Shown here piece by piece: positions 4,995 to 64,000 of a stretch of 64,000 bases of DNA. The stretch spans positions 29,941 through 93,940 of the forward strand of contig JAJFKB010000015.1 of the NCBI GenBank assembly GCA_021773395.1. The letters run 5' to 3'. How positions within the stretch are numbered: position 1 is the stretch's first letter; each line of letters opens with the position of its first letter. The position numbers and the translations under genes were made by a program. Under the pieces are notes generated by a model, which saw only the letters and a program-made list of their open reading frames with translations, was not told the origin of the DNA and did no database searches. The DNA is from Gammaproteobacteria bacterium (GTDB taxonomy: Bacteria; Pseudomonadota; Gammaproteobacteria; Pseudomonadales; IMCC2047).

Positions 4995-5225
4995 GCGCCT
5001 CACAAAATCACCTGATTTTATATTTCATAAGCGAATCATATAGTCAGCGTTTAGTCTAATAATTTGTACTATACTGATTACTACAGAATGCTCATATTGA
5101 CCAAGGGATCTAGCTGGGCGGGCTTACCCGTCATTCTAACCAATATAACCGGGTATTCTCGGATTCTAAATCTAAAGAAATTGGTATAACGGTGCAAATA
5201 AAGGTATTTGTTGAGTACCTGATCA

Positions 5226-8200
5226 ATGAACAAACTATCAGATTATAGGCTCGTCAGAGCCTATATGGGCAATCCAGGAAAGCGCATCAACGGCTTGTTG
5301 ATGAGTTTGCTATTGGGTGCAGCACTTATCGCAAGTGCTGAAGAACCTGTCAGAATAGTTCGAGTCGGCATTTACAATAGTCCCCCCGCAATTTTTATTA
5401 ATGATGATAACGACCCTGATGGTTTCTGGCCACATTTGCTTGATCATATTGCTACCAAGGAAAACTGGCAGTTGCAGTGGGTAGAGTGTGAGTGGGCGCG
5501 ATGCATGAGTCTGCTGGAAGAGAATAAAATTGACGTAATGCCGGATACTGTCATTAACCCGGAAAGACAAAATCGTTTTGATTTTTCAAACGAAACAGTC
5601 ATAGTCAGCTGGTCGAGAGTTTATGCTCATCCCCAAGCAGACATTCAGACAATTCTGGATCTGGAAGGTAAGCGGGTGGCTGTATTGGCAGAAAGCGCAA
5701 ATTATAAAGGGCAGGGTGGTATAGCCGAATTGGCAGAAAGCTTTGCTTTGGATATTGAATTTGTGGAGTTGCCAACCGATTTGTCAGTACTTGCCAGCGT
5801 TGAAAAAGGGGCGGTCGCTGCCGCTGTAGTGAATAGGGACTTGGGTTTCCTTTTCGAGCGTGACCTGAAGGTGCAGAGAACACCCATTATATTGCAGCCT
5901 GTGGATCTCAGGTTTGCCTTGACTAAAGGCACAGAACTTAGCGGCTATTTGATCGATATTCTTGATTGGGAATTACAGCAACTCAAGTCACGGTCCGACT
6001 CCATCTATTATCAGTTATTGGAGGAGAAATTGTTACAAAAGTCGGTAGAAGCACCGGGGCTGCCCGACTGGCTTTATTGGATTTTGGCTGTGGTATTTAT
6101 TATTTTTCTGCTATTACTGGCCGGCAGTTTCGTGATGCGGCTGCGTATCCGCCAAAGGACCAAAGAGTTAAAAATGGAGGTCCGCTCGAGAAGACATTCT
6201 GAAGGTAAATTACAAGAGAGTGAACAAAGGCTGCAATCGATCATAGATAACGCGCCATCAATGGTATTTGTCAAAGACAATCAGGGAAAATATCTGTTAG
6301 TTAACAGCTCTTTTGAAAAAATGCTCAATCGTGAAGCCAGTCAAATTATGGGTAAAACAGACTTTGATTTTTTTCCGGCAGAGCTGGCACAAAAATTTAG
6401 TGGTGAAGACAAACAGGTAATAGAGAAAAACGTTATTCTCGAAATCGAAGAACGGTTGCCTGAATATACCGGTATTGATCACTGCGCAACCACCAAGTTT
6501 CCTTTGTACGAGCAAGGTGTGGCATATGCCGTTTGTGGTATTTCGACTGATATTTCAGATCGTAAGAAAGCTGAGTCATTGCAGCTAAGTCAGCAGAAAG
6601 TATTGGAACAGATTTCACGGGGCGATCAATCATTAGAACAGATACTGCACACTATTATTGAATTGACTGAAAGTCATACACCGGATATTTATGGTTCCAT
6701 TTTATTATTAAAGGGAAGTCAGCTACGCCACGGCGCAGCGCCCAGCCTGCCTGCCGACTACGTCGAGTTGATTGATGGTCTGGAAATCGGGCCAGAAGTA
6801 GGTTCCTGCGGTACAGCGGCATATCTGGGAGAGCGAGTTATCGTTGAAGATGTGCTGTTGGATTCTAAATGGCAGAATTATCGGGACCTCGCCAAGCGGC
6901 ATGGTTTTCGAGCTTGCTGGTCTGAGCCGATAGTGGATAGGCATGATAACGTACTAGGCACCTTTGCCGTCTATCGCGCTGAGCCAGGAACGCCGGATAA
7001 AAACGAAATTAAGATGAGTGAAGCGATGGTGCATGTCGCAAGTATCGCAATTGAACAGGAGAGAACCAAAGCGCAGCTGGCCAGTGCGTCAGAGGAGTGG
7101 GTTCAGGCTCTGGACCATTTTGAGGATGCTGTCTATCTCACGGATATGAACCGCAATCTGATTGCGGCTAATAAGGCATTTTATAACAGAATCGGATCAA
7201 AACCCCAAGGGAGTGTCGGAAGACCGGTGTTTGAGCTTATCCATAAGGATGATGAGCAGCATGATCGTACCAGTTGCCCTTCCTGTCAGTTACAGGATCA
7301 GCATCGTGAAGGCAGTGTCATTATGGAGGCGAAGGATCCTAATAATCTGGAATCCTTTCCCATTGAAATACGTGTGAAATTGATTAAAACGGATTTTGAG
7401 GAACCAACTGGCATGCTGATCAGCGTGCGTGATTTAACCAAAGATCGAATGCTAGAGCAGAAACTGCGTTTATCGGCCAGTGTGTTTGAGAATACCAGTG
7501 AGGGTGTGATTATCAGCGATAAGCAGGGCACCGTTGTCGAGGTCAATCGCGCATTTACCGAGATACTGGGCTACGAACGTGATGAAGCGATAGGTCAGAA
7601 TCCCCGCATGTGGAAGTCGGATCGCCATGGTGAGTCTTTCTATCGGGATTTTTGGAACTCGTTAATGACTGTCGGGCGTTGGCGCGGTGAAATATGGAAT
7701 CGGCGCAAGGATGGATCGGTTTTCCCGGAATGGTTGTCGATCAGTCAGGTGGTTGATTCAGAGGGCGAATTAACCCACTTTATCGGTGTGTTTACGGATA
7801 TCAGTAATTTAAAGGAATCTCAGGAGCAGTTGGATCATCTGGCTCATCATGATGCGCTGACTGATCTGCCTAACCGTTTGCTATATGTCGAACGCTTAAC
7901 GCAGGCGATCAAGCATGCCGAGCGTCAGAACAAACAGCTGGCGATTGTTTTCATCGACCTGGATCGTTTCAAGAATATTAACGACAGTCTGGGGCACCCC
8001 GCTGGTGATCAGTTGCTTTGTCTGGTCGCAGAGAGACTAGAGGATGTGGTGCGTGAGGATGATACGGTAGCCCGAATCAGCGGTGATGAGTTTGTGTTGT
8101 TGCTGGAAGACATTGGTAGTTCCAATAATGCGGCACATGTTGCGCAAAAAGTGATGCGTATCTTTGATAGTAGCTTTCAGTTAGAGGGTCGTGAAGTACA

Positions 8201-9152
8201 GACCAGTGCCAGTCTGGGTATAAGCCTGTATCCGCAGGATGGTGATGATGCCGCTACTCTGCTGCGCAATGCCGATGCCGCCATGTACCGGGCCAAGGAC
8301 GAGGGACGGAACAATTATGAGTTTTATACAGAGGAGCTGACGCGCAATGCATTTGAAAGGGTGTTGCTGGAGAACAGTCTCCGCCAGGCGCTAGACCATG
8401 AGCAGTTCCTGCTGTATTACCAACCTCAGGTTAATATATTTACCGGGGAAATTATTGGCGCGGAGGTGCTGATACGCTGGCAGCATCCGGATCAGGGCAT
8501 GGTTTCACCGGCGAAGTTTATTCCTATTGCCGAAGAGTGTGGATTGATTTTGGCGATCGGTGAGTGGGTGTTACGTGCCGCCTGTGAGCAGGGAAAACGT
8601 TGGCTTGATCAGGGTATTAATTTTGGCCAGTTGGCCGTTAATGTGTCAGGTGTGCAGATAAAAGATAGTGGGCTGGTTGACCGGGTAACTAAAATTATTG
8701 AAGAGACCGAGTTTCCTGCTTCCTGCCTGGAACTGGAGATTACTGAGGGTTTCATTATGCAGCAAACCCAGTTTGCCATTGCCCAGCTGGAAGCATTACG
8801 AAATCTGGGCTTGACACTGGCTATCGATGATTTTGGTACGGGCTACTCTTCTTTGAGTTACCTGAAGCGGTTGCCGATACAGAAACTTAAAATTGACCAG
8901 TCCTTTATTCGTGATATTCCTGACGACCTTAACGATATGGCCATTTCCAATGCAGTGATTGCCCTGGGCGATAGTCTGAGTCTGGAGGTTATTGCCGAAG
9001 GTGTCGAAACCAAGGAGCAGGCCGACTTTTTGAAAAAGGCCGGTTGTAGTCAGGCTCAGGGTTTTCTCTATAGCCGACCGGTACCTGCGGAGGAGTTTGC
9101 ACAATTGCTCAAGGAAATGAAAAAAGATGGTGTGGTTACATTGACTCCCTAG
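5226..9152 (+). CDS. Periplasmic-sensing PAS/GAF/GGDEF/EAL c-di-GMP protein
   Basis: A 1308-residue membrane-bound bifunctional c-di-GMP enzyme candidate. Order: signal peptide (to about 39), SBP_bac_3 amino-acid-binding-like periplasmic domain (about 40-270), one membrane helix (about 283-305), PAS (about 335-450), GAF (about 465-620), two PAS (about 625-870), GGDEF (about 880-1040), EAL (about 1055-1300). The GGDEF signature reads SGDEF, with a complete RxxD inhibitory site (REDD) five residues before it. The EAL signature reads EVL and keeps the catalytic Glu, and the remaining motifs ELEITEG, IDDFGTGYSS and IAEGVET are intact. Phosphodiesterase activity is therefore likely, cyclase activity uncertain. 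The stop overlaps the convergent iorB-like gene. Confidence 0.9.
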   Translation: MNKLSDYRLVRAYMGNPGKRINGLLMSLLLGAALIASAEEPVRIVRVGIYNSPPAIFINDDNDPDGFWPHLLDHIATKENWQLQWVECEWARCMSLLEENKIDVMPDTVINPERQNRFDFSNETVIVSWSRVYAHPQADIQTILDLEGKRVAVLAESANYKGQGGIAELAESFALDIEFVELPTDLSVLASVEKGAVAAAVVNRDLGFLFERDLKVQRTPIILQPVDLRFALTKGTELSGYLIDILDWELQQLKSRSDSIYYQLLEEKLLQKSVEAPGLPDWLYWILAVVFIIFLLLLAGSFVMRLRIRQRTKELKMEVRSRRHSEGKLQESEQRLQSIIDNAPSMVFVKDNQGKYLLVNSSFEKMLNREASQIMGKTDFDFFPAELAQKFSGEDKQVIEKNVILEIEERLPEYTGIDHCATTKFPLYEQGVAYAVCGISTDISDRKKAESLQLSQQKVLEQISRGDQSLEQILHTIIELTESHTPDIYGSILLLKGSQLRHGAAPSLPADYVELIDGLEIGPEVGSCGTAAYLGERVIVEDVLLDSKWQNYRDLAKRHGFRACWSEPIVDRHDNVLGTFAVYRAEPGTPDKNEIKMSEAMVHVASIAIEQERTKAQLASASEEWVQALDHFEDAVYLTDMNRNLIAANKAFYNRIGSKPQGSVGRPVFELIHKDDEQHDRTSCPSCQLQDQHREGSVIMEAKDPNNLESFPIEIRVKLIKTDFEEPTGMLISVRDLTKDRMLEQKLRLSASVFENTSEGVIISDKQGTVVEVNRAFTEILGYERDEAIGQNPRMWKSDRHGESFYRDFWNSLMTVGRWRGEIWNRRKDGSVFPEWLSISQVVDSEGELTHFIGVFTDISNLKESQEQLDHLAHHDALTDLPNRLLYVERLTQAIKHAERQNKQLAIVFIDLDRFKNINDSLGHPAGDQLLCLVAERLEDVVREDDTVARISGDEFVLLLEDIGSSNNAAHVAQKVMRIFDSSFQLEGREVQTSASLGISLYPQDGDDAATLLRNADAAMYRAKDEGRNNYEFYTEELTRNAFERVLLENSLRQALDHEQFLLYYQPQVNIFTGEIIGAEVLIRWQHPDQGMVSPAKFIPIAEECGLILAIGEWVLRAACEQGKRWLDQGINFGQLAVNVSGVQIKDSGLVDRVTKIIEETEFPASCLELEITEGFIMQQTQFAIAQLEALRNLGLTLAIDDFGTGYSSLSYLKRLPIQKLKIDQSFIRDIPDDLNDMAISNAVIALGDSLSLEVIAEGVETKEQADFLKKAGCSQAQGFLYSRPVPAEEFAQLLKEMKKDGVVTLTP

Positions 9153-11314
9153 CCATTTTCCCTTGCTTCAACGAAGGTCATCTCTTTAATCGGTAGTTTA
9201 CGTATTCTAGTCCCGCTGAGTTTGAATAGCGCATTGCAAACCGCAGCGGCCGCCGGCGGTGTGCCGGGTTCACCAACGCCACCAATCTCTGCGTCGCTTT
9301 CCAAAATGGCGACCTCGATCTCAGGCATCAAATTGGCAGGGAGGATCGGGTAGTCGTGGAAGTTGCTCTGCACGGCTTTTCCTTCCTTAAAAGTAACTTC
9401 TTCCAATAATAACTGTGACAGACCTGTGGAAATGCCGCTTTGCATCTGTGCTTCAATGGTATCTGGATTAACTACCTTGCCACAGTCAATGCTACACCAG
9501 ATTTTGTGTATTTTGGGTTGTTCCCGCTCGATAGAAACTTTTGCAACCTGAGCCACGATAGAACCGAAAGATTCATGGAGTGCGATGCCATAGGCGTAAC
9601 GCATTGCATCCGTTTCAATAACTCCGGCCTGATAACTTGCAAGCTGCGTGGCAGTCTGCAGAACCTTTAAATATCTGGGCGATGAGTTAAGCAGCTCACT
9701 TCTGAATACTAATGGTTCTACGCCAGCTGAATAGGCCATTTCGTCTATAAAACTTTCCGTAATAAAACCATTGAAGGAGTGGCCGACGGAGCGCCAAAAG
9801 CCAATGGGAATCTGATGAGTATGTTTTATCCAATCAACCCGCTTATTAGCGATAGCATAGGGTTGATGGATAGCACCTTCTACTACTGAGTTATCTGCCT
9901 GGCCGGGTTTGAGTGGAAAGAGCCGGCCAGCCGGTCCTTCCCCTGTGAGACTTATATGCCAAGCCGTAATATGTTTACTTTTATCCAGTGCTGCCCTGTG
10001 TTTAACCACGGTCATGGGCCGGAAAAAATCCTGTTGTAGATCCTCTTCGCGGCTCCAGATCACCTTGACCGGTTGCCCGATCTTCTTTGCCAAAACCAGT
10101 GCCTGCTCGGCGTAGTCCTGATAAAAACGTCGGCCAAAGCCTCCACCCAGGTAAGGTGTATGAACAGTTATTTTATCCAGGGGTAAACCGGTAATTTTTG
10201 CAGCCAGTTGCGCAAAAAAATCAACACCCTGGTTTGGCGCCCATAGTTCACACTGGCTGCTGGTAACGTGGGCAGTACAATTCATCGGCTCCATGGTGGT
10301 GTGGGCCAGGAACGGGACTTCATAAGTGGCCTCGATCTTGTCAGCGGCTTTTTCAAAAGCATTTTCAATATCGCCCTGATCCTCTGCGGTTAGACCGGGT
10401 TCATCGGCCCTTGCTCTCATTTCCCTGGCCAAGCCTTCGGAGGAAAAACTTCTGTTGTCACTTTTTGCGTAAGACACGGGTAAATTATCCAGTGCCAGTT
10501 TGGCGTGCCAATAGCTATCGGCAACCACCGCAACACCCTGGGGAATTCTTTCCACTGCAATAACACCACGCATGGATTGAACTGCATCCGCATCCACGCT
10601 ACTGATAGTCTCGCCATAAACAGGGTTTCTTTTTACCGCAGCATAGAGCATTCCCGGGACTTTTACGTCGATGCCAAACTCCGCTGTACCATCTGTTTTT
10701 GCCAGCGTATCTTTTCGTTTGACCGGTTTGCCGATATAACGAAAATCTGATTCTATTTTTAGCGGAGGTGATTCAGGAACGGGCAGTGTGGCGGCTATTT
10801 CAGCCAGTTGGCCATAGCTCAGCTTGCGCCCTGAGATTTTGTGGCGTACCTGCCCATTATCGGTATCCAGCTCGGCCAACGGCACGTCGAGTGCCTGAGC
10901 CCCTGCCTGTAACAGCATCGCTCGGGCAGCAGACCCTACTGTTCGCATCAGCTCATAGCTTGAGCGAACACTGCGACTGCCTCCAGTATAGCGCTGGGTA
11001 CCGCCGAACATTGTTTTATACTGATCCCCATGGGGTGCCTGTGTGACTTCGATACTGTCCAGATCGATATCCATCTCCTCTGCAACCAGCATCGGTATCG
11101 AGGTGTAAGTTCCCTGACCCATTTCAATGAAAGGGTTATAAAAGGTTACTTTTCCCTCTGGGTTCAGATTAAGAAACGCAGTGAGTGCGGAAGCTGGCGA
11201 GTTTTGGGATGCAAGTGCTTTGCGTGAGCTTAGGGGTAACAGAAATGCAAGCGTTAGCCCGCTTGCACTGCCTGCCAGGAACTGACGCCGTGAAAGGTTT
11301 TTTATCTGATTCAT
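9149..11314 (-). CDS. Molybdenum hydroxylase large subunit, IorB-like
   Basis: A molybdopterin-binding large subunit of the xanthine dehydrogenase family, closest in layout to isoquinoline 1-oxidoreductase beta. It has 721 residues and starts with a Tat signal, [10 protein letters not shown], before a hydrophobic stretch, so it is exported folded to the periplasm. [16 protein letters not shown] is a cofactor-binding loop and [17 protein letters not shown] near the C-terminus carries the catalytic Glu of the family. It overlaps the 2Fe-2S subunit gene by ATGA, showing translational coupling. Substrate is unknown; aldehydes or N-heterocycles are usual for relatives. No cytochrome c subunit gene is adjacent. 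Confidence 0.88.
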
Positions 11315-13849: not shown

Positions 13850-15637
13850 TTACCTTTTCGCGGAACCCTCGGTCTTACGCTTTTTTGCCGGTGATTTCCT
13901 GATTGCTTTTGCGGGTGCGGGTTTGCCGCCTTCCTGCACTCGACTCATTTCCAGCTTTTTATTACGGACCCAGACTTTCCTTAGGTGTTTAAGAACCTCC
14001 TTAGGCATGCCTGTAGGCAGTTCTATGGTGCTATAATTCTCTTTGATCTCAATACGTCCAAAATACTGACTGTCTATTCCTGCCTCATTGGCAATTGCAC
14101 CTACGATATCACCTGGTGTTACCTGATTGGTTTCACCCACTTCCACGCGGAACGTCTCCAGTTCTGTTTCAGAGCTTTCCTGAGTGCGCTTGCGTGGTTT
14201 TCGGGAGCCTTCGGAATCGCGCCGGGGTTTCCCGTCATCTTTCCTTGTTTCGTTTCTGGTATTGTCGGCTTTACGACTGGGTCGATCCTTTTTGCTGAAT
14301 TTTTCATGTTCCTGAGGTTCAGCACGTAACGGACGATCCTGCTGCAGCAGATAAGCAAGGGTTGCCGCCAGTGATTCAGGTGATTCATCCAGTTCGTTGC
14401 ACAGGTCGATAACCAATGAGTCGAAGAACCCCTTGGGCGTTACGGCACGGGCTTCTGATATACGTTGCTTGAATCGTTGCACGCGTTGTGTGGTGATGTC
14501 CTGGGAGGTTGGTAATTCCAGTCGAGCAATGCGCTGCCCGGTAGTTTTTTCAATGCTTCCGAGCAGTCGCTGTTCGCGGGGTGTGACGAATAAAATAGCG
14601 TTTCCGGTGCGTCCTGCGCGTCCAGTACGGCCAATCCGGTGAATATAGGCTTCGCTGTCATAGGGTATATCATAATTGACTACGTGACTGATGCGCTCGA
14701 CATCGAGTCCCCGAGCTGCAACATCCGTAGCAACCAGGATATCTATGGCGCCCTTTTTTAAATCCCGAATAGTCTTTTCGCGCTGACTTTGGCTCATGTC
14801 GCCATTGATCGCTGCGCAACTGTATCCTCTCGCGGAAATTTTTTCCGCGAGTTCTGTGGTCGTTTCGCGGGTGCGTACAAAGATAATCGCAGCTTCAATC
14901 GCCTCGAATTCCAATAAGCGGGTCAGTGCATCCAGCTTTTGACGTTGGTTGACCATCCAGTAACGCTGATTAATCGTATCAACGGTCACTGCCTGGCCCT
15001 GAATATGTATATGTTCAGGATTTTTTAGAAATCGGTTTGCCACTTTTCGGATTGGGGCGGGCAGTGTTGCTGAAAAGAGTGCTGTTTGCTGAGTGCCAGA
15101 GGTATGAGAAAGGATAGTCTCGACATCATCGATAAAACCCATACGCAGCATTTCGTCAGCTTCATCCAGTACCAGCATTTTCAAATCAGATAAATCGAGG
15201 CTTTTGCGACGCAGGTGATCCAGTAGTCGCCCAGGTGTTCCAACGACTACTTGCACGCCCCTGCTGAGCTGGCGCAGTTGCCCGCGCATGTCCTGTCCAC
15301 CATACAAAGGGAGAACGTGGAAGCCTTTCATGTGGCGGGCGTAGGACTGCAAGGCTTCTGCAACCTGAATAGCCAGTTCTCTTGTCGGTGTTAGGACTAA
15401 CGCTTGTGGTATATTTTTTTTGCTGTCGATTTTTGCCAGAATAGGTAGGGCAAAAGCTGCTGTTTTCCCTGTTCCAGTTTGTGCCTGACCGATAATATCG
15501 CCACCTTTCATCAAAGGTGGAATGCTCGCTGCCTGGATTGGCGAAGGTGTTTCATAGCCTACGCTATGTAGTGCTTTCAGCAGAGTGTTAGGTAATCCCA
15601 GCTCTTCAAAGGAACAGGGGGCTTTTTCATCAATCAT
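13850..15637 (-). CDS. deaD: DEAD-box RNA helicase, DeaD/CsdA-like
   Basis: 595 residues. The helicase core has the Q motif (FEELGLPNTLLKAL then TPSPIQ), AQTGTGKTAAF, PTRELAIQ, GTPGRLLDHLRR, DEADEM, SAT and HRIGRTGRAGRTG. After a basic low-complexity linker (about 420-480) comes a DbpA-like RNA-binding domain (VTPGDIVGAIANEAGID, FGRIEIKENYSTIELP) and a Lys-rich tail. This layout matches CsdA/DeaD, which unwinds structured RNA during ribosome assembly, mRNA decay and cold growth. A 475-base intergenic region lies upstream, so a long 5' leader, as in E. coli csdA, is possible. Confidence 0.9.
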   Translation of the reverse strand: MIDEKAPCSFEELGLPNTLLKALHSVGYETPSPIQAASIPPLMKGGDIIGQAQTGTGKTAAFALPILAKIDSKKNIPQALVLTPTRELAIQVAEALQSYARHMKGFHVLPLYGGQDMRGQLRQLSRGVQVVVGTPGRLLDHLRRKSLDLSDLKMLVLDEADEMLRMGFIDDVETILSHTSGTQQTALFSATLPAPIRKVANRFLKNPEHIHIQGQAVTVDTINQRYWMVNQRQKLDALTRLLEFEAIEAAIIFVRTRETTTELAEKISARGYSCAAINGDMSQSQREKTIRDLKKGAIDILVATDVAARGLDVERISHVVNYDIPYDSEAYIHRIGRTGRAGRTGNAILFVTPREQRLLGSIEKTTGQRIARLELPTSQDITTQRVQRFKQRISEARAVTPKGFFDSLVIDLCNELDESPESLAATLAYLLQQDRPLRAEPQEHEKFSKKDRPSRKADNTRNETRKDDGKPRRDSEGSRKPRKRTQESSETELETFRVEVGETNQVTPGDIVGAIANEAGIDSQYFGRIEIKENYSTIELPTGMPKEVLKHLRKVWVRNKKLEMSRVQEGGKPAPAKAIRKSPAKKRKTEGSAKR

Positions 15638-62466: not shown

Positions 62467-62556
62467 GGCTATACACTCAGGGAGATGGGCGATTACTATG
62501 GGAGTCACTATTCAACAGTGAGTGGTATTTTGAGGGATCATAAATCAAAGACCTGA
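62467..62556 (+). pseudogene. C-terminal remnant of a Y1/REP-associated transposase
   Basis: A 29-codon frame ending at TGA 62556 reads GYTLREMGDYYGSHYSTVSG and then ILRDHKSKT. This is the DnaA/HTH-like tail (GYTLREIG...HYSTVSRIV) of REP-associated tyrosine transposases. No start or N-terminal HuH part is left. CAAAGACCTGACCCC directly after it is the typical end sequence linked to these elements. Remnant only. Confidence 0.6.
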
Positions 62557-62576
62557 CCCCATCCGTGCATGACCCC

Positions 62577-62845
62577 ATCCGTGTGTTGACCTGGATCACT
62601 GGATTCGTCGCAGAGTAACAATGGCCTATTGGCGTCAGTGGCGAAAACCACGCACCAAGGTAAGGAATTTGATAAAGCGTGGCGTTAAAATACAGTCCGC
62701 TGTTGCGTGTGGCATTACCAGCAAAGGACCGTGGCGTAGTTCAAAAACTCCAGGGATTAACCAGGCATTATCCGATGCTTACCTTGAATCTGAGGGGCTT
62801 TACTCGCTACGCGATGGTTGGATCAGGCTTCACTATCCTAAGTGA
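62577..62845 (+). pseudogene. 3' remnant of a group II intron reverse transcriptase
   Basis: An open stretch after a TGA reads DLDHWIRRRVTMAYWRQWRK and then PRTKVRNLIKRGV, PWRSSKTPGINQALSDAYL, EGLYSLRDGWIRLHYPK. These are the maturase and C-terminal blocks of group II intron-encoded proteins (xxWKRPRTRxRNLxxLG, then GPWRxxxSPxxxxALSNAWF). The reverse transcriptase core upstream is missing. An ATG at 62621 would give 74 residues. Not functional alone. Confidence 0.75.
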
Positions 62846-62914
62846 AACGCCCTGTGCGGATCCGCATGCAGGGTGTTGTGGGGGCCGGAGGCTAGATACC
62901 TCCGGCTACCCGAT
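62577..62914 (+). mobile_element. Truncated group II intron (class C-attC-like), 3' end
   Basis: After the RT remnant, 62846-62878 forms a domain V-like hairpin: CCCTGTGCGG pairs with CCGCA-CAGGG around ATCC with a two-base TG bulge. 62879-62914 forms a domain VI-like stem, GCCGGAGG with CCTCCGGC, ending ACCCGAT. The intron end meets TATGTTGC, resembling the TATGGGTTGC that follows TTTTGT in the neighbouring attC. The orientation is opposite to the cassettes, as known for group IIC-attC introns. The 5' intron part is missing. Confidence 0.65.
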
Positions 62915-63246
62915 TATGTTGCATTTGATGTTCCTGCCATTCCAAAAATACCGAAAAACAGGCTAAAAAAGAGAATTAAATACACAAAGAAAAATGCTAG
63001 CGTGAAATCAGATAATTTGCTCAAACCTGGGTCGTTTAGCTCTCTATGTTCACGTCTCCCGATAAATTTGAGAGTGGCATATCCCGTTTTCATTGAATTG
63101 TTCCAAAACAGACTTGGCTTGCCCATTCCTTCATATTTTTCAGGATGTTGTCGCTCTAAGCGAATAAAAATTGCTTTAAGCAATACAAACCAAATTAAAA
63201 CCATTGCCATCAAAAGCCCGAAAACTACTAGAAACAATTCATCCAT
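62914..63246 (-). CDS. Cassette-borne UspB-like membrane protein
   Basis: 110 residues. Helices are at about 3-23 and 82-103. The middle part has LERQHPEKYEGMGKPSLFWN, then FIGRREHRELNDPGLSKLSD, a layout like UspB-type small membrane proteins and like many integron-cassette products of unknown function. The start (63246) is about 19 bases from the attC box of the next cassette and the stop falls at the intron end. Role unknown. Confidence 0.7.
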   Translation of the reverse strand: MDELFLVVFGLLMAMVLIWFVLLKAIFIRLERQHPEKYEGMGKPSLFWNNSMKTGYATLKFIGRREHRELNDPGLSKLSDFTLAFFFVYLILFFSLFFGIFGMAGTSNAT

Positions 63247-63264
63247 ATTATTTCGCTCTTAGCA

Positions 63265-63344
63265 ACATAACGCTCAGCATAAGGGGCCGCGCGATTTTCG
63301 CGGTCCCGGTGAGTGAAGCGAACAGCTTAATGCTTTTGTTATGG
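63265..63344 (-). repeat. attC recombination site 1
   Basis: Read on the minus strand, outer boxes CCATAAC (63344-63338) and GTTATGT (63271-63265) enclose nearly complementary arms: AAAGCATTAAG against CTTATGCTGAGC with an extra unpaired base, and a GC-rich variable middle (GGGACCGCG against CGCGCGGCCCC). This is the layout of an integron attC site, 80 bases. It stands 18 bases after the stop of the gene at 63363-63842. Confidence 0.75.
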
Positions 63345-63362
63345 GTTGCTTGATAAACAAAT

Positions 63363-63842
63363 TTACTCTCGTGATTTCTGCAAGATTTCTTTCGTCATTT
63401 TTTGTAAAGGCATTAATGAATCTAAAGAGCTTCGATAGTATTTCTTAAACTCTTCCAGAGCTTCTTCACGCCTTATTCTCTTCAATTCCCCTCCATTCGT
63501 TAATATTTGGAGAACGTAATAGGATTCATCTTCTTCGGGTGTTTTGCCAACACTCATGGTCGGATGAGATCGCAAACCATGATGGGCAAATGCATTTCTT
63601 AATGCTCCAACTTGATGCAGTGCATTTCTATCAATTTTAATTTCTAGCTTTTTTGAAATCGCTACTACCAATTTAATTTTTGCTCCTAATGACATGATGG
63701 AGCTATCTAAAACAACATGCCAAACGAACTCAAACGCTTCTTTTCGAGGTGACAGATAATTGTGAATTATCTGATTTATCAAATTCTCTATATGGTCAAC
63801 ACCGTCTATTACATTACTTACATCTGAATTGGTTTCACTCAT
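63363..63842 (-). CDS. Cassette-borne HEPN/MltR-like protein
   Basis: 159 residues, all-helical. ALRNAFAHHG carries the R-x4-H pattern (RNAFAH) of HEPN domains, and the region SLGAKIKLVVAISKKLEIKI followed by HQVGALRNAFAHH is also like MltR proteins. HEPN proteins are often RNases in toxin-antitoxin or defence roles; no antitoxin gene (for example MNT) is beside it in this cassette. Its start lies 13 bases inside attC 2 and its stop 18 bases before attC 1, exactly as a cassette gene. Confidence 0.7.
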   Translation of the reverse strand: MSETNSDVSNVIDGVDHIENLINQIIHNYLSPRKEAFEFVWHVVLDSSIMSLGAKIKLVVAISKKLEIKIDRNALHQVGALRNAFAHHGLRSHPTMSVGKTPEEDESYYVLQILTNGGELKRIRREEALEEFKKYYRSSLDSLMPLQKMTKEILQKSRE

Positions 63843-63855
63843 ACTATGTATTTAC

Positions 63856-63974
63856 CCATAACGCCTAGATAACCAACCTTGCAAAAACCAAAAAAAGATC
63901 CATTACCCTGATGGTTGGCACGGGTCTCTCGTATGAAATGCGTTTGCAAGGTTGTGTTCATCGTCTTGTTGCAC
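63856..63974 (-). repeat. attC-like recombination site 2
   Basis: Minus strand: GTGCAAC (63974-63968) and GTTATGG (63862-63856) frame inverted arms that share ACAACCTTGCAAA and its complement TTTGCAAGGTTG, with an AT-rich central region. The size (about 119 bases) and spacing to the next gene fit an attC. The boxes are less perfect than in site 1. It belongs to a cassette whose gene lies beyond the window. Confidence 0.65.
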
Positions 63975-64000
63975 GTGATCGCTGGCACGGACTAGCGGGG

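Follow-up and report, generated by a model that had tools for sequence, protein, structure and literature searches.

The window, that is, the whole stretch of 64,000 nucleotides that was analysed, ends at its right edge with the end of contig C7. In its last 1.1 kb both genes, coding for proteins of 159 and 110 aa, lie on the minus strand. An earlier reading, made from the sequence alone, had described two minus-strand genes spaced by attC-like sites with boxes, and the genes, the boxes and their coordinates were all present. The features of this part of the window, including the end of an adjoining cassette here called X, are the following.

62554 to 62583, plus strand: two copies of TGACCCCATCCGTG, bordering an intron remnant on the left, where its 5' part is lost (repeat search)
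62588 to 62845, plus strand: C-terminal remnant (85 codons) of the reverse transcriptase/maturase encoded by the intron (tblastn to LtrA)
62845 to 62914, plus strand: group II intron domains V-VI and 3' end (Rfam RF00029, 47.7 bits, gathering threshold 40, E = 3.5e-7)
62915 to 62922, minus strand: remnant GCAACATA of the R'' box of the last cassette's attC (sequence; alignment with a related intron end)
62914 to 63246, minus strand: gene of a hypothetical protein of 110 aa in the distal cassette (no family above cut-off)
62915 to 63270, minus strand: distal gene cassette, with an attC interrupted by the intron; start box GTTATGTTGC fits the R'' remnant
63264 to 63345, minus strand: attC of the cassette with the 159-aa gene (R'' ACCCATAAC, R' GTTATGT, bulged arms; covariance model R2, 21.2 bits, E = 0.0039)
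63271 to 63861, minus strand: proximal gene cassette of the window, from G/TT to G/TT; start box GTTATGGGT is the reverse complement of its R''
63363 to 63842, minus strand: gene of a 159-aa protein with an RNAFAH motif in the proximal cassette (Pfam PF18735, E = 0.03, below cut-off)
63856 to 63974, minus strand: attC ending cassette X (R'' GTGCAAC, R' GTTATGG, arms CAACCTTGCAAA/TTTGCAAGGTTG; inverted repeat, missed by model R2)
63860 to 64000, no strand assigned: 141 bp common to the window end and the end of contig C26, an assembly branch into two-copy sequence, taken to be the end of cassette X

Cassettes, attC sites and the intron at the array end

The start box of each cassette complemented its own R'' box, at 9 of 9 bases in the cassette of the 159-aa gene, at 8 of 8 surviving bases in that of the 110-aa gene and at 7 of 7 in X. 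As background, 3.1% of 2,634 other GTT in the loci used for the same comparison below matched at 8 or more bases downstream. The placement of the window at the distal end of an integron cassette array, with the proximal side toward the right, was supported.

A HEPN identity of the 159-aa protein, proposed in the sequence-only reading, is a weak lead, based on the Pfam match below the cut-off and on the RNAFAH motif, which we take to be the HEPN-type Rx4H motif. The names MltR-like and UspB-like, also given there, found no support in the family searches, and the 110-aa protein matched no family above the cut-off. A plasmid relative of the 159-aa protein was sought and none was found, and PADLOC gave no convincing match. 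The stop codon of the 110-aa gene takes in the last base of the intron.

The attC sites were searched with a covariance model, R2, trained on 16 attC (six from contig C26, ten from relatives and none from the window), with a structure drawn by hand. In its alignment 94.7% of the cells were paired against 69.9% when shuffled, the cells with double changes numbered 44 against 13, and double changes were present in all seven pairs of the L-helix. Over the 64-kb window at E ≤ 10 the model gave a single match, 63264-63345 on the minus strand, and it missed 63856-63974 even at E = 10. Folding of the bottom strand gave z = -2.97 for the first site (1 of 200 shuffles as good) and z = -1.95 for the second (9 of 200), and the arms of the second are complementary at 12 of 12 positions. 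Both sites had been called attC-like from the sequence alone: the first has the R''-L''-L'-R' arrangement with a bulged bottom-strand stem by model and by fold, and the second by its arms, its boxes and a weaker fold, not by the model. A home-made arm-pairing scanner, which gave -21.9 for the second site against a best of -17.8 in 20 shuffles and -14.3, inside the shuffle range, for the first, was dropped as too noisy.

The group II intron at the left end of the array lies antisense to the cassettes and is the single RF00029 match in the whole genome. Its reverse transcriptase remnant showed 83.3% identity over 84 of the 85 aa to LtrA of enterobacterial plasmid introns (685 plasmid records matched in tblastn) and had no Pfam or NCBIfam match; the reading frame starts just right of the TGACCCCATCCGTG repeat. 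Both the 5' part of the intron and the 5' exon have been lost, and a 14-bp direct repeat lies at the breakpoint. What remains is the last 85 codons and domains V-VI, and the intron, being 5'-truncated, is therefore not mobile by itself. The R'' of the last cassette serves as its 3' exon (TATGTTGC), and the 3' end of the intron precedes the T of TATG there (plus-strand site TTGT/T); TTGT is deleted together with the 5' exon, so only the 3' side of the site is seen. According to a published description (PMC7923331), group IIC-attC introns use the site TTGT/T in the bottom-strand R'' of attC, in the orientation opposite to the cassettes. From domains V-VI, the likeness of the reverse transcriptase and the insertion site, the window intron is judged to be of this type and 5'-truncated.

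The nearest relative found was the intron beside blaIMP-4 on enterobacterial plasmids, where the LtrA relative adjoins the blaIMP-4 cassette in the two plasmid records opened. Both introns lie antisense to the cassettes in the R'' of an attC, with a 3' exon starting with T; in alignment their 3' ends are almost the same, and TA begins the 3' exon of each. The window copy differs in being a 5'-truncated remnant. The array ends at 62,914 because this intron sits in its last attC. The stop at about 62.9 kb noticed in the sequence-only reading was thus a real end, and its cause was the intron, which that reading had missed. A truncated group IIC-attC intron in an array has already been reported (UHB.F1), as stated in the same source (PMC7923331). 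The window intron makes a small extra case of an integron-borne intron relic, near one that stands beside a resistance cassette. Just left of the remnant, at 62480-62600, lies a sequence with GGGGTCAGGTCTT, presumably of the type of REP-associated transposase elements.

The integrase and the attI units of the genome

The genome, which is in 26 contigs, has one IntI match, at C13:408-1400 near the start of the contig (TIGR02249, 421 bits, cut-off 265). The attI upstream of intI was placed by comparison with 12 relatives, with the crossover at ...CTGTT. By our reading, a LexA-like box also lies upstream near intI. The promoter-like TTGATT-N16-TATGAT of the attI region is one of five consensus matches in 371 bp, where 1.2 were expected. 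Inverted repeats upstream of intI were considered as an unrelated MITE, which was dropped, the region being aligned with the attI of relatives.

Four Pc-attI units were present in the genome, at the start of C13, on C6, on C2 and at about 62 kb of C13, and three of them are without intI. When the four copies were aligned, all had the promoter-like motif in common and were alike as far as the crossover, beyond which they differed. The attI of C6 and that at the start of C13 showed 88% identity over 286 bp; where C13 has intI, C6 has a TonB-receptor-like gene by our reading. The two remaining copies are placed as follows.

C2:723904-724097: intI-less attI copy, 484 bp from the contig end
C13:62077-62292: intI-less attI copy, well inside the contig

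A same-strand attC was found 216 bp downstream of the C2 copy (E = 0.0005; E = 0.01 over the genome), and in the 7 kb examined at the 62-kb copy of C13 there was no attC match. By eye, an EF-G-like gene borders the C2 attI with its cassettes on one side, and the apparent end of an EF-Tu gene, at the contig end, on the other. Near the start of contig C17, at 2112-2746, there were two more attC matches, with no attI match there.

Dispersed attI units in related genomes

With a sequence-only model of attI, R1, matches were found in 9 of 57 genomes (E ≤ 0.01) and in 47 of 391 genomes of the order (E ≤ 1e-4), the genome of the window included in both counts, and at least 32 of the 47 had two or more. 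In the search of 391 genomes at most five candidates per genome were scored; the counts are lower bounds and some of the matches are partial. Many of the assemblies are fragmented. Two to four attI, mostly far apart, were present in the single-contig genomes G144, G189, G192, G229, G232 and G291. The middle four of these (G189, G192, G229 and G232) had three to four copies each, two of those in G189 lying 12 kb apart. An IntI match was found in 29 of the 32 genomes with several attI, one to three in each with fragments counted, and none in G018, G207 and G308.

When 25 attI loci were read closely, 22 of them were without intI. One of these orphans (G004_C37) keeps an intI remnant of 32 aa. None was found in the available flanks of the other 21 (18 of the 22 have at least 2.9 kb upstream and three less than 500 bp); a match of 25% over 51 aa at E = 0.34 in the G018:C42 locus was disregarded as a remnant. 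Aligned with the intI-side attI of the same genome, six copies were homologous over a stretch beginning 256-273 bp before the match end and three over one beginning at 216-220 bp, and other attI copies of G004 matched its intI-side copy in short pieces or not at all.

Within one genus, 47 attI loci of 11 genomes formed 35 flank groups, a number in which G026b is a group of its own by default (too little flank) and in which orthologues too diverged for BLASTN also count apart. The set comprised the listed attI of ten genomes (four of five for G308, one of three for G291) and six loci of G026, whose seventh, weak, locus was left out, as were G148, G272 and G326. In the anchor-based comparison 19 of the 47 loci had no anchor and were left out. 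The nearest attI unit belonged to the same genome for just 13 of the 47, and homogenisation of attI within genomes is not claimed. Movement of the attI unit as a cassette, with a left-edge G/TT box matched by a later R'', was also rejected: such matches were found at 4 of 25 loci (G000_C2, G004_C72_intI, G004_C21 and G018_C42a), all of 7 bases and none longer.

Some units of other kinds were seen in these genomes. In G018, the attI-like unit C42b (C42 locus 14885-15250) lies directly after an attC, as if carried inside an array. Besides the family linked to its intI, G004 has another family of attI-like units (GGGGACnTTCTTCCTTATAATTAGCTGTTA), which are followed by attC. G026 has intergenic repeats of the TTCTGAACTTGATTCAGAATC type in front of the five intI-less attI that were read, but not in front of its intI copy.

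In 12 genomes, chosen by us for their few contigs, there were 41 listed attI, of which four with intI within 1.5 kb were set aside. At least 15 of the 37 others, the intI-less attI, were followed within 2.5 kb by an attC on the same strand (150 of 188 attC were used). The controls, among the matches listed, gave 1 of 37 downstream on the opposite strand, 0 of 37 upstream on the same strand and 1 of 37 upstream on the opposite strand. A direct scan of 40 loci of one genus found a same-strand attC within 2.5 kb downstream of 28 of the 39 intI-less attI and none near the other 11, and all 60 attC (E ≤ 0.1) were downstream of an attI on its strand. The cassette start matched an R'' at 8 or more bases at 8 of the 17 evaluable attI sites (one of them intI-side) against the 3.1% of other GTT given above; of 25 sites, eight were not evaluable, having too little sequence downstream or no GTT. 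Over 51 intI-less copies the mean information per column was 0.71 bits before the crossover and 0.24 after it. The TGTT at the crossover was missing in 10 of 66 attI copies, and these were left out of this profile.

In five of eight orthologous pairs of intI-less attI, homology (76-95% identity, not always continuous) stopped 3-9 bp past the crossover G and different sequence followed, as in the intI-side orthologous pair, where homology stopped at +5. In one of the other pairs it stopped at -4/-6 and resumed 1.3 kb on, and in two it stopped 8-22 bp short of the crossover, resuming in one of them 1.7 kb on; one member of each of these three deviating pairs is without TGTT. An attC was found downstream of both members in two of the eight pairs (G026c/G308c and G123a/G361b) and of one member in four, some flanks being short, so that the presence of different cassettes at orthologous attI is in part inferred. 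One and the same cassette follows the attI of G026 and G123, whose flanks are unrelated, with 90% identity from -253 to +371, ending near its attC end.

The orphan copies are homologous to the intI-side attI up to G/TT and then continue with a cassette. As far as the compared sequences tell, the downstream attC and the ends of homology at the crossover are marks of site-specific insertion at attI. Because these attI have no intI beside them, their recombination would require an integrase supplied in trans, either by the intI locus or by one that has disappeared in the meantime; we infer that the cognate IntI recombines the intI-less attI in this way.

We lean, with some reserve, towards the reading that one integrase serves scattered promoter-attI pads of about 260 bp and that the pad itself spreads. 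This would give a genome-wide integron, with cassettes expressed from many places and exchanged in trans. The reading is drawn from the 35 flank groups among 47 loci, from the same cassette on pads with unrelated flanks and from the different sequence after orthologous pads; the spread may be due to IntI itself or to a MITE-like process. Several complete integrons could instead each have lost their intI, leaving attI and cassettes as fossils with no exchange in trans. Such relics would agree with the 32-aa remnant in G004_C37, the intI fragments in several relatives, the 11 orphans of one genus without a nearby attC and the ten copies without TGTT. They are nevertheless improbable, since 21 of the 22 orphans have no intI remnant in the available flanks and homology with the intI-side attI ends at the distances given above. 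Moreover, in sister species different sequence follows orthologous orphans, with homology stopping at G/TT in five of eight pairs, and the same cassette start follows the attI of both C6 and C13.

The window array, its probable link to the integrase and known systems

The sequence-only reading had expected intI and attI to the right of the window. There was no IntI match on C7, which stops at window position 64,000, 26 bases past the last attC, and the single match of the genome lies on C13. Of that expectation, the orientation of the array and the presence of intI and attI in the genome held, and the join to the window would run through the unassembled X. The outcome named there as speaking against an integron, with both attC below threshold and intI absent, was not what was found: one attC was matched, one was missed, and intI is present.

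The last 141 bp of C7 (94 kb) are also the end of C26 (275 kb), and the start of C13 (300 kb), with attI and the first 89 bases of a cassette, has 141 bp in common with the start of C6 (414 kb); each of the four contigs has its own flanks. The GTTGCAC that follows attI on C13 and C6 is the reverse complement of the R'' GTGCAAC that ends C7 and C26 (7/7). Among the contig ends there were 15 same-tail pairs (48 of the 52 ends compared), and since C7/C26 and C13/C6 are just two of these, the link between them is drawn from the box match.

In the simplest reading, one cassette (or short run), X, would sit in both attI, followed by the window array in one place and by the C26 array in the other, and C7 and C26 would hold the other end of X. 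The intI gene probably lies beyond one unassembled cassette, X, from the window array. The end box of the window array fits the box after the attI of C13, and the C26 array and the intI-less attI of C6 fit equally. The attI adjoins intI on C13, and the link from C7, running via X, could lead to C6 instead. When 57 genomes were searched at the DNA level with the last 155 bp of the window and with the attI region, a single match of 26 bp was the only one from another genome, and X is therefore not readable from a relative.

From its proximal side, the window array would consist of cassette X, the 159-aa cassette and the 110-aa cassette. A group IIC-attC intron would have inserted antisense into the last attC and later been 5'-truncated, and the array would now stop there. 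It would be part of a multi-platform integron with one intI, on C13, beside its attI and with further Pc-attI units of about 260 bp elsewhere without intI, at which the IntI from one locus would insert cassettes. Action of IntI at distant attI would give the same cassette start at two attI and the growth of two arrays. It is highly probable that the window holds the distal, intron-ended part of an array belonging to such a multi-platform integron, with dispersed attI used in trans.

The window array could also be unrelated to the attI of the genome, as a CALIN (a cluster of attC sites lacking integrase) arisen by stray insertion at a non-classical (attG) site. No attI is reached before the contig end and the link is indirect, other repeat ends occur among the contig ends, and the attC matches on C17 are likewise without an attI match. 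This is rather unlikely, because the R'' at the end of X on C7 and C26 complements the box after the attI of C13 and C6 at 7 of 7 bases, and both contig-end pairs branch into two copies, the pattern expected from a single shared cassette. Very unlikely is an assembly or strain-mixture artefact, in which one integron shows two attI and two arrays because variants of different cells were binned together from a metagenome: the 26 contigs, the four contig ends meeting at 141-mer branches and the unassembled X would allow it, but the four contigs are long and have their own flanks, the attI of C6 and C13 differ, the 62-kb copy of C13 lies deep within its contig and that on C2 is 484 bp from the end, and single-contig genomes carry two to four attI, mostly far apart.

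The integron with dispersed attI preferred here is like a sedentary chromosomal integron in its IntI, the LexA-like box upstream of intI (our reading), the attI with a G/TT crossover and the attC cassettes in one orientation. It is unlike one in having several Pc-attI units per genome, most of them without intI and many with cassettes of their own. Cassettes away from intI are also found in CALINs; the intI-less arrays here, however, begin with a conserved Pc-attI unit, which is outside the usual definition of an attC cluster without intI. Through attG sites, cassettes come to lie at many chromosomal places without a local integrase, as they do here, but the sites found here are copies of a real attI with Pc and not degenerate genomic sites. 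One study (PMC12444791) states that CALINs can be mobilized in trans and mentions cassette integration at non-classical attG sites. Delta-attI-type cassettes of mobile integrons likewise have attI sequence away from its normal place; as described (PMC12901181), they carry attI pieces downstream of an ORF, whereas here whole Pc-attI units precede cassettes at separate loci. In the literature searched, mostly outside subscription journals and preprints, no description of dispersed intI-less Pc-attI units was found.

The usual description gives an integron one intI and one attI next to it, so that good expression is limited to the first cassettes of a single array. A genome whose attI-Pc units are dispersed and used in trans could express and reshuffle many first-position cassettes at once, and arrays filed as CALINs could then be living platforms. 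How an integron platform multiplies, and what its smallest portable acceptor would be, would become open to direct testing. Common integron tools look mainly for intI and attC, so a scan for attI copies is needed.

On C26, model R2 found eight more attC, all on the same strand and six of them in the training set. This second array (C26:265500-275342, locus positions 5200-9843, minus strand) carries a LysE-type exporter, a HIRAN protein, a GFA-family enzyme, a HigB/HigA toxin-antitoxin pair and small unknown proteins. At locus positions of about 7118-7145 (minus) the HIRAN cassette ends with GGCCTTATAATTAGCTGTTAGGC, its R'' running, with no attC between, straight into a short core that equals the end of one attI type of G004 (CCTTATAATTAGCTGTTA). 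At positions 9683-9730 (minus), a tandem duplication of 21-22 bp of the attC end of X, including G/TT, was seen by eye between X and the next cassette.
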